From Desulfonatronovibrio hydrogenovorans DSM 9292 (GTDB lineage: Bacteria > Desulfobacterota > Desulfovibrionia > Desulfovibrionales > Desulfonatronovibrionaceae), in the NCBI RefSeq assembly GCF_000686525.1, contig NZ_JMKT01000008.1, positions 434,001 to 498,000 of the forward strand: a stretch of 64,000 nucleotides of DNA, in the 5' to 3' direction. This document shows, piece by piece, positions 24,603-27,552 of this stretch (position 1 is the first letter of the stretch; the number at the start of each line of letters is the position of its first letter). The notes under the pieces are model-generated. The model saw nothing but the letters and a program-made list of their open reading frames with translations, searched no databases and was not told the origin of the DNA. A program made the translations under genes and the position numbers.

Positions 24603-25160
24603 ATGAGAAAACATATTCACATCCATATCGGTGAATGCAGAGCCAGCAGAGAGCCGGCTGTTCTTCACACCATCCTTGGATCCTGCGTGGCTGTCTGCCT
24701 GTTTGACTCTGTCCGTCGGATCGGAGGGATGAATCACATCCTTTTGCCGGGCAAGGCCGATCTGAAAAAATTTGACGTATCCGCCAGGTACGGGGTCAAT
24801 GCCATGGAGATACTCATCAACGAGATGATGAAGCTGGGGGCGGCGCGAAAGGACTTTATTGCCAAGGCTTTTGGAGGGGCGCACATGATTCCTTCCATAT
24901 CCAGGGACAATGGCGTGGGCAGGAAGATCGCATCCTTTGTCCTGGAGTTTTTGCGAAATGAGCATATCAGAATAGTGAGCAGTGATTTGGGAGGTGTTGA
25001 GTCCAGGAAGATACTCTTCTATACTGACACTGGAGAGGTTTTTCTCAAAAGGGTTCCTTCCGGCTATGTCAGCAGACTGGCTCAAAGGGAACAGGCCGAG
25101 TCAGCCCGGATCAGGCAGGAGTCTCAGCAGGCAGGGGATATTACCCTGTTTGATAAGTAA
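24603..25160 (+). CDS. cheD: Chemoreceptor glutamine deamidase CheD
   Basis: Deamidates glutamines on chemoreceptors and can bind CheC-type phosphatases. Catalytic Cys in HTILGSCVAVCLFD and catalytic His in GGMNHILLPG; also YGVNAMEILINEMMKLGA, AFGGAHMI and SSDLGGVESRKILFYTDTGE. 185 aa. No other chemotaxis gene is in the window. An AGGGA box lies just before the ATG. Convergent with the hybrid kinase gene (10 bases between stops). Confidence 0.93.
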   Translation: MRKHIHIHIGECRASREPAVLHTILGSCVAVCLFDSVRRIGGMNHILLPGKADLKKFDVSARYGVNAMEILINEMMKLGAARKDFIAKAFGGAHMIPSISRDNGVGRKIASFVLEFLRNEHIRIVSSDLGGVESRKILFYTDTGEVFLKRVPSGYVSRLAQREQAESARIRQESQQAGDITLFDK

Positions 25161-25170
25161 CTGAGTCAAC

Positions 25171-27477
25171 TTAATTGTCAAAGCTGGTTTCGAGCACTTT
25201 TTGCAGTTTGCTGAGCAGATCCTGGAAAGAATATGGTTTCTGGAGGTATCCTTTGATTCTGGTTGAGTCGAGGCGCATTTCCTTATCCGGGTTATAGCCG
25301 CTGGAGATGATCACCTTGACTGCAGGGTCAAGTTTTGACAGGCGGCTGTAGGTTTCAATTCCATCCATCCTGGGCATGGTCAGGTCAAGAAGCACGCAGG
25401 CAATATTCTGGCCGTACTTCTGGTAGGCGGAAATGGCTTCTATGCCGTCAACAGCAGTGATGACCTGGTAGCCGGCATCCCTTAGCAGTTCAGCAGTAAC
25501 CTGTCTGATGCCCTCTTCATCATCCACCACCAGGATGGTCTCTCCTCCATCCTGCCTGGCTGCTGGATACTCTACTTTCTGGGCCGGAGTCTTGGGGTCG
25601 GGTATCTGGTCCGGCAGGGGAATGAGGAGCCGGACTGTTGAGCCCCTTTCCGGGCTGCTGCTGATGGTCAGGGTACCATTATGCTTGCGGGCAATGGTTT
25701 TGACTGCAGCCATGTCCAGCCCTCTACCCTCGGCTTTGGTGGAGAAAAAAGGGTCAAAAATTTTTTCCCGGCACTCTCCATCCATGCCTGCACCATTATC
25801 CTCAACCTGAATAAAGGCATAATGGCCCGGACCAGCTGGACTGGCAGAAAAGCTGGCTGATTCTCCCCCGGAAGAATGCAGGTAAAGTCCTGTACTGATC
25901 CGGATAAAACCATCAGGATGCTTTATAGCTTCACAAGCGTTGGAAAAGATGCTCTTTATTGCCTGTCGAAGCAAATCCCTGTCCGCCCGGATCCAGGGGA
26001 TGGACTGGTCCAAATCAAGATCCAGCCGGCAGTTTGAACCGCACATTTGGAGCAAAACATCCTTGAGTTCAATAATTGTCCGGTTCAGATTAATAAGTTT
26101 TGGAAAGAATTTGCCTCTTCCTGAAAAACTAAGCATTTTTCCGGTCAGCTTTGAAGCCCGTTCAACAGCTTTTTCAGCCTGTCTGACTATGGTAGCCAGG
26201 TCTTGGGGGATGTGGCCAGCCTGAAGACAGGCATCCAGGTTGTTCCTGATAACCTGAAGCAGATTGCTGAACTCGTGGGCTATTCCTCCAGTCAGGACTT
26301 CAAGGCTTTGCCGGGAGGTGGAGTGCTGAATGTCCTGCTGTGCCTCGTCTCTTTTTTCGTTGTCTGAGTGTCTGCGGTGTGTAATATCTCTGACTATGAC
26401 AAAAAAGCTTTCATGCGTTCCGATAAAGCCAAGTCTTATGCTGACCTCCACCCAGAATAGAGAGCCGTCTTTTTTTCTGGCCTGCCACTCCAGGGTGGTG
26501 AACTTTTCCTGCCTGACCCTGTCCATGAGTTTTTGGAGCATGGCTGGATTGTATGGGGGGATGCCTGAACTGAGGTTGGTCACAGAAAGGCTCAGCATTT
26601 CTTCCTTTGAATAACCATACATTTCACATGCCCGTTCATTGGCGTCCAGAATCCTGAAGGTCGGGCCATCATGGAGGATGACTCCGTCGTGAACCATGTC
26701 AAATATGGTTTTCAGGTACTCCTTGCTCTGCTGCAGCTTTTCCTGGGTATCTTTCCGGCGCAGGCACTCTACTTCCAGCTGTCTGACGGTTTTTGACAAT
26801 TCCTGGGTTCGCTGAAGGACATATTCTTCCAGCTGATGCTGATTTGTGATCAATGATCCTTCCAGGGCCCGACTTTCGGTTATGTCCAGGATGATTCCAC
26901 AGACCTGAGTTATTTCCCCTGACGAATCCCTGAAAATATCCAGGTGCTGTATTGCGGTCCTGAGACGGCGATCCCTGGTGGTAAACATGAATTCCACATC
27001 AGCGACTATTTTTCCGGCGCAGGCCCTGGAGATCTGTTTTTTCAGGGATTGAACTGAGGTTGAAGAGACATGGCTCAGGAAGAAGTCAAAGTCGGGTTCA
27101 ATGGAAAAAGAGGGGTATCCCAGGAGATTGTACAGGTTGCAGGACCAAAGGTATGAGCCGGTGGCCAGATCTTTTTCCCAGAGGCCTTTCCAGGTGACGT
27201 GTCTGGTCCAGTCCAGGGATGTTTTGATGCTGGCTGAAAATTCCGGGTCCTGGGGGATGGGAGCTTTTGCAGAGGTAAAAAGGAAGAGTGAGGCTGGCTC
27301 GGTGTTTAACGCCCGACAAATTTTATGGATTACCTTAAATGACGGTGAGGAGATGCCTCGTTCAATTCTACCCAGGTACTGAAGGGAAATGCCGGCCTTT
27401 TCAGCCAAAACCGCCTGGGTCATGTTTTTGATGGAGCGCAAGAATTTCAGGCGGTTGCCGAATTCCATGGTCAGCAT
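25171..27477 (-). CDS. Hybrid histidine kinase with N-terminal Cro/C1-type HTH, two PAS domains and receiver
   Basis: Signal protein combining a DNA-binding fold with a phosphorelay kinase. In order: XRE-type HTH (residues ~5-65, NMTQAVLAEKAGISLQYLGR, IERGISSPSF); PAS (~95-205); short coiled coil; PAS with PAC (~245-370, LDANERACEMYGYSKEEMLS); phospho-acceptor helix GGIAHEFSNLLQ; ATPase domain with SIFSNACEAI, VEDNGAGMD and FDPFFSTK; receiver with ILVVDDEEGIR, phospho-Asp in VLLDLTMPRMDG and the Lys in LQKPYS. No membrane segment, so a cytoplasmic sensor. ATG 27477 is 6 bases after AGGAG; the ATG at 27483 abuts that box. Confidence 0.9.
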   Translation of the reverse strand: MLTMEFGNRLKFLRSIKNMTQAVLAEKAGISLQYLGRIERGISSPSFKVIHKICRALNTEPASLFLFTSAKAPIPQDPEFSASIKTSLDWTRHVTWKGLWEKDLATGSYLWSCNLYNLLGYPSFSIEPDFDFFLSHVSSTSVQSLKKQISRACAGKIVADVEFMFTTRDRRLRTAIQHLDIFRDSSGEITQVCGIILDITESRALEGSLITNQHQLEEYVLQRTQELSKTVRQLEVECLRRKDTQEKLQQSKEYLKTIFDMVHDGVILHDGPTFRILDANERACEMYGYSKEEMLSLSVTNLSSGIPPYNPAMLQKLMDRVRQEKFTTLEWQARKKDGSLFWVEVSIRLGFIGTHESFFVIVRDITHRRHSDNEKRDEAQQDIQHSTSRQSLEVLTGGIAHEFSNLLQVIRNNLDACLQAGHIPQDLATIVRQAEKAVERASKLTGKMLSFSGRGKFFPKLINLNRTIIELKDVLLQMCGSNCRLDLDLDQSIPWIRADRDLLRQAIKSIFSNACEAIKHPDGFIRISTGLYLHSSGGESASFSASPAGPGHYAFIQVEDNGAGMDGECREKIFDPFFSTKAEGRGLDMAAVKTIARKHNGTLTISSSPERGSTVRLLIPLPDQIPDPKTPAQKVEYPAARQDGGETILVVDDEEGIRQVTAELLRDAGYQVITAVDGIEAISAYQKYGQNIACVLLDLTMPRMDGIETYSRLSKLDPAVKVIISSGYNPDKEMRLDSTRIKGYLQKPYSFQDLLSKLQKVLETSFDN

Positions 27478-27539
27478 GCACATCTCCTGGTATGGTATCC
27501 TTTAGTCCTTAAAAAGCATAACCAGGAAATGTTTAAAAC

Positions 27540-27552
27540 AACCTTTAAGGTT
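27540..27552. promoter_or_regulatory. Palindrome upstream of the HTH-histidine kinase gene
   Basis: AACCTTTAAGGTT, a 13-base symmetric sequence in an AT-rich stretch 60-75 bases before the kinase start. It could be an operator for the kinase's own HTH domain or part of a promoter; no second copy was noticed. Confidence 0.25.

Follow-up and report, generated by a model that had tools for sequence, protein, structure and literature searches.

We consider it likely that the gene at positions 25171 to 27477 (minus strand) of the window, the stretch of 64,000 nucleotides analysed here, encodes a cytoplasmic hybrid histidine kinase whose XRE-type helix-turn-helix (HTH) binds an operator in its own promoter, most likely repressing its own gene, and which also signals by phosphotransfer. 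Histidine kinases normally reach DNA only via a separate response regulator. Judged from sequence, it is very probable that the HTH functions in DNA binding and has an operator of its own in the gene's promoter; DNA binding by the HTH is a strong prediction and autoregulation of the kinase gene a moderate one.

Domain make-up and surroundings of the kinase gene

The initial annotation had described one soluble chain carrying an HTH, two PAS domains, a kinase and a receiver. Pfam searches bore this out, with the order HTH_3, PAS, PAS, HisKA/HATPase, receiver in a single frame, the HTH being N-terminal and the receiver forming the C-terminus; no membrane helix was found in the kinase by hydropathy (19-residue maximum of 1.08). 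The open frame (25171-27483, minus strand) gives 770 aa, or 768 aa counted from its third codon, the ATG at 27475-27477 that the initial annotation had used. This ATG is the likelier start, because the AGGAG at 27484-27488 is 6 nt away from it but abuts the first ATG, and because the equivalent codon opens the orthologue. The latter, in G002 of the same genus (48% protein identity), was the only full-length match besides the window in a first search of 41 genomes, 15 of which had matches at E<=1e-60. The features of the gene are as follows.

25171..27477, minus strand: hybrid histidine kinase gene, 768 aa from the preferred ATG, 770 aa from the ATG at 27483
27274..27468, minus strand: Cro/C1-type HTH, residues 6-70 (numbered from the ATG at 27483), with an HTH_3 match of 50.1 bits (cut-off 23) over residues 19-64 and the presumed recognition helix SLQYLGRIERG at residues 33-43
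26866..27210, minus strand: first PAS, residues ~92-206, one of two PAS_3 stretches
26734..26874, minus strand: long helix following the first PAS, family consensus LExxVxxRTxxL, last helix of the single-sequence model
26368..26736, minus strand: second PAS, residues 250-372, with PAS_9 above cut-off (65.5 bits, residues 266-368)
26122..26295, minus strand: HisKA-like region, sub-threshold, with H403 in HEFSNLLQ
25612..25983, minus strand: HATPase_c, residues 501-624, above cut-off (69.7 bits), with N515, D562 and the F-box present
25204..25536, minus strand: receiver, with Response_reg above cut-off (residues 650-760, 72.9 bits) and D654/D655, D700 and K749 present

The HTH resembles known DNA-binding domains: its nearest solved chains include C.BclI, C.AhdI, SinR and 434 Cro. 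Three of its residues, R16, Q23 and E41, are invariant across 44 family members and, by likeness to the 434 repressor, R16 and E41 would form a salt bridge and Q23 would contact DNA. The first PAS, assigned by count from two PAS_3 stretches above the Pfam cut-off, is conserved together with the HTH across the family. A single-sequence structure model of 251 residues from the preferred start had a mean pLDDT of 40, only its last helix being confident.

In the kinase core, HisKA matched residues 397-454 with 19.3 bits, below the cut-off of 26.9; since H403 in HEFSNLLQ lies within this stretch, it is likely a divergent phosphoacceptor helix. The N, G1 and F boxes are present, and the G2 box reads GRGLDM, in which D590 (window 25714-25716) replaces the Gly of the other 21 of the 22 listed G2 boxes. 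This substitution may be a warning that the kinase is weak in this species.

It had also been claimed that no regulator gene is adjacent, and none of the 13 window frames besides the kinase that were scanned with Pfam, a subset of the frames in the 64 kb, encodes a response regulator. These neighbours comprise CheD, a glycerol-3-phosphate acyltransferase, DUF2628, OEP/HlyD/ACR efflux genes, a GTPase, a LonB-like protease, an AICAR-type enzyme, ATP synthase chain I and flagellar genes. The cheD gene (window 24603-25160) is convergent to the kinase gene with a gap of 10 bp and lies ~5 kb from the flagellar genes; the upstream DUF2628 gene is co-directional, not divergent. An RND efflux pump stands near both orthologues, but the pumps are only 24% identical, so the proximity is likely due to chance and a link was rejected. 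As dsrA scored above cut-off in the window's genome, the organism is probably a sulfate reducer.

A candidate operator upstream of the kinase gene

The palindrome on which our reading turns lies outside 25171-27477, the span covered by the initial annotation. Its features, and those of the promoter that it may overlap, are given here.

27537..27552, minus strand: candidate operator AACCTTAAAGGTTGTT, centred ~69-70 bp before the preferred start
27540-27552, minus strand: palindrome AACCTTAAAGGTT, within the candidate operator
27530..27540, minus strand: second dyad TGTTTTAAACA, adjoining the operator; TGTTTTCAACA in the orthologue
27515..27520, minus strand: possible -10 element TATGCT, conserved in the orthologue
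27536-27541, minus strand: putative -35 element TTGTTT, inside the operator, with a short 15-nt spacer to TATGCT

A sigma-70 consensus scan listed no promoter at the candidate operator. Upstream of the gene and its orthologue, little of the DNA could be aligned well apart from AACC-TTWAM-GGTTGTTTTMAACA and what follows it. The orthologue's gene neighbourhood differs from that of the window, yet the palindrome is conserved, and it also recurs in the promoters of several paralogues. A pattern drawn from the gene and its orthologue was run over 44 family promoters, and the next ranks went to L060, then to L080 and L062. With the pattern AACCTNNNAGGTTGTTT, 9 of the 44 promoters beat all 200 shuffles, including those of the window's gene, of its orthologue and of family members from other taxonomic families; AACCTNNNAGGTTGTTT was refined after the first ranking, and two of the nine promoters had defined the first pattern while two more shaped the refinement. 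Taken alone, the palindrome in the window's promoter is not unusual (p=0.139). A conserved palindromic candidate operator is predicted at 27537-27552.

The idea that this sensor-regulator controls a regulon found no support in the window's genome. The exact site occurs there once, at the kinase gene's own promoter, and the pattern is not enriched genome-wide (5 strand matches against 10 for the reversed control, and 4 against 5). Six one-mismatch places were inspected: three (L024, L027, L153) lie inside frames, one (L151) is the ribosome-binding site of a phage-like gene and one (L152) a terminator-like hairpin after a stop codon. The sixth (L026, 1501-1514) is separated by 13 nt from the start codon (ATG) of a gene for a phosphonate-type binding protein, before which it lies, and adjoins or overlaps the ribosome-binding site. 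With its exact site only at its own promoter, the protein looks like an autoregulated hybrid kinase and not like the regulator of a large regulon.

Two further full palindromes were found in the orthologue's genome outside the orthologue gene. One (L150, 2908-2923; L156) is a full AACAACC-N5-GGTTGTT before a multi-PAS histidine kinase gene, in whose translation an HTH was not seen; the other, of the same kind, is intergenic (L149, 2959-2974).

The HTH-PAS family and its promoters

The initial annotation had called such one-piece sensor-regulators uncommon, which does not hold within the class. Among 348 genomes of the class, at least 37 hold relatives sharing the HTH and first PAS, at 58 places in all (two-row alignment search, E<=1e-20), each place with a frame that has an HTH match; 37 is a lower bound, as ten further genomes of one genus, outside those 37, have such an HTH gene. 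Among 395 genomes spread over the phylum (G000 included), only G000 and one other matched at E<=1e-18; in that other genome the match spans alignment positions 96-254 and leaves out the HTH. A scan of genome contigs for named relatives returned two HTH-only matches, in Clostridium-like records, and a plasmid scan one, in Geobacillus. XRE-PAS-kinase proteins with operators were not found described in the accessible literature, which lay largely outside subscription papers and included PMC4558063, PMC3532121 and PMC5701242.

Pfam scanning of 44 of the 58 members, the other 14 being outside that scan, gave HTH_3 in 44, HATPase_c in 25, HisKA in 23, a receiver in 15, Hpt in 4 and GGDEF in 2. When ten members were scanned singly, four were kinases (one with a receiver), one ended in GGDEF and five had only HTH and PAS. 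Four members consist of HTH plus PAS alone, in 197-223 residues. The HTH-PAS head was thus seen alone or joined to a kinase, a receiver, GGDEF or additional PAS domains: the head is the constant part and the output the variable one, and the relatives without a kinase show that the HTH module as such needs none. The window's genome has a second HTH-PAS gene (L078, 2111-3616; 501 aa), in which a kinase domain was not found and whose promoter carries a weaker site of the window-operator kind. In two genomes of one genus, divergent HTH-PAS kinase genes ~2.6 kb apart (L067 and L068) were observed, one with a receiver match and the other without.

Dyads were also counted in the family promoters with no sequence model. 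Those with 8-bp arms separated by 1, 3, 5 or 7 bases were present in 13, 16, 21 and 16 of 44 promoters, compared with ~4 of 44 in shuffles and 5-7 in DNA further upstream, a three- to five-fold enrichment; separations of 0, 2, 4, 6, 8, 9 and 10 gave 4, 7, 6, 5, 8, 8 and 11 of 44 against ~3-4 in shuffled DNA. Over all 58 members, dyads at p<=0.01 had odd centres in 7 of 58 promoters, even centres in 1 of 58, and were seen in 1 of 53 stretches 400 bases further up; most of the 58 family promoters lack a significant dyad. The subgroups differ in their palindrome, which stands at similar distances before the HTH gene.

In a sister subgroup with the helix SLEH..K, members share the palindrome CACGTAAY-N3-RTTACGTG, i.e. 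CACGTAAT-N3-ATTACGTG. At up to 2 mismatches it occurs once in each of eight subgroup genomes, plus one extra site in G066. Its form CACGTAAYNNNRTTACGTG, at up to 1 mismatch, was present as a single copy in each of 20 genomes out of the 348; matches to the reversed control were scattered over other genomes. An HTH gene follows 17 of the 20 sites, 7 of them in set members and 10 at loci unused in deriving the motif. All ten of these further loci (10/10) have the HTH gene and all belong to one genus; the 14 loci of that genus are closely related to one another and do not count as independent events. For the remaining sites, in G180, G209 and G289, an HTH gene was not seen in the fetched stretch. 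The window-class site gave a much less clean pattern than the SLEH operator: 10 of 348 genomes contain exact MAACCTNNNAGGTTGTTY, but a family gene follows just 3 of these 10 sites, the other 7 lying elsewhere.

In 17 of 18 loci the HTH gene and a gene for a solute-binding protein diverge from each other, with the SLEH operator in between. The divergent genes are of the PBP_like_2 type in 13 of 14 loci (one genus) and of the LivK type in 4 of 4 (two other genera); the divergent arrangement was noted at L160-L169, L096-L098 and L113, and at L071, L072, L076 and L079. In the stretch examined, both the site and the solute-binding-protein gene are missing from L073, which completes the nine SLEH members of the first set.

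A code relating helix to operator was tried and rejected, as it was only weakly separable from relatedness. Operator similarity correlated with helix 3 (r 0.18) no better than with the remainder of that domain (r 0.20); the partial r was 0.11 (permutation p 0.02), so specificity is not told apart from common descent here. Some members with a matching or similar helix have no matching site (L075 and L069; L073), and the site is likewise missing in L088, L108 and L110 when set against L091 and L092.

Proposed mechanism, alternatives and known systems

That the HTH can bind DNA directly is a well-supported prediction from sequence, resting on the conserved palindrome and the SLEH operator-to-gene test. 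In our model, the N-terminal XRE-type HTH, probably as a dimer, would bind a palindromic operator of ~16-23 bp that overlaps its own promoter, and the bound protein would most likely repress its own transcription. Repression is preferred over activation, since a protein on this site would sit over the -35 side of the possible TATGCT -10 element. Such autorepression would limit the amount of the sensor. The state of the adjoining PAS and coiled coil would probably tune DNA binding, allowing the signal to gate it, while the other output would be phosphotransfer from H403 to the protein's own receiver and on to a presumed unlinked partner.

One possible extension, to which we give appreciably less weight, is that the HTH controls a neighbour or small regulon in addition to its own gene, as a one-piece sensor-regulator with species-specific targets. 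The position of the SLEH operator, flanked by the HTH gene and the divergent gene for a solute-binding protein, speaks for this, as do the two extra full palindromes in the orthologue's genome, one of them before a PAS histidine-kinase gene, and the one-mismatch copy just before the phosphonate-type gene in the window's genome. That single copy, however, overlaps a ribosome-binding site, the pattern is no commoner there than its reversed control, and the upstream DUF2628 gene is not divergent. Site placements across genomes suggest that autoregulation is the common element and that neighbour control is likely in some species. It is unlikely that the kinase is decaying, with D590 weakening ATP binding and the protein now acting mainly as an HTH-PAS one-component autoregulator: GRGLDM departs from the other 21 listed G2 boxes, which have Gly, HisKA is below cut-off and kinase-free HTH-PAS relatives exist, but the frame is unbroken and retains H403, N515, D562, the F-box and the key residues of the receiver. 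We find it improbable that the palindrome is the site of another regulator and that the HTH serves in protein binding or dimerisation. Co-inheritance of some other factor is conceivable, and HTH-operator binding is itself predicted; yet the palindrome changes from one subgroup to the next while its distance before the HTH gene stays similar, the neighbours of the window's gene differ from those of its orthologue, the sister operator occurs once per genome and precedes the HTH gene in 17 of 20 genomes, and the HTH resembles solved DNA-binding XRE proteins.

For the autorepressing hybrid kinase that we prefer, both binding of the kinase to its own gene and the effect of signal or phosphorylation on that binding are directly testable with the predicted operators. 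More tentatively, the relatives may form a PAS sensor family confined to the class (as searched), in which one HTH with a private operator, nearly single-copy in each genome, is combined with interchangeable outputs (kinase, kinase-receiver, diguanylate cyclase or none). Each sensor would then occupy its own promoter and set its own copy number according to the signal, the kinase being tethered to DNA. In this family, HTH helices and candidate operators vary together as a natural series for study, and the sister subgroup with one site per genome would provide clean models of a self-limiting sensor.

Among solved chains, the window HTH is nearest to XRE autoregulators (C.AhdI, C.BclI, SinR). 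Restriction-modification C proteins bind palindromes in their own promoter; these proteins and SinR are small and stand-alone, without PAS or kinase domains. In the hybrid two-component systems (HTCS) of Bacteroides the DNA-binding domain is C-terminal and of the AraC type, whereas the window protein has an N-terminal XRE-type HTH and a receiver at its C-terminus. According to PMC11253607, HTCS unite kinase, receiver and DNA-binding regulator in one chain with a membrane sensor; the window protein is like them in joining kinase, receiver and DNA-binding domain in a single chain, but is soluble by hydropathy, without a membrane-spanning sensor. The best NCBIfam match, PRK13557.1 (histidine kinase family protein; PAS, kinase and receiver), scored 230.5 bits, far under its 631-bit cut-off, and begins after the HTH and first PAS. 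The best solved match was the histidine kinase chain 5idj (E 1.2e-29), followed by CckA and FixL chimera chains; unlike the window protein, these CckA/FixL-like chains have no HTH match, and the similarity covers the PAS-kinase part only.
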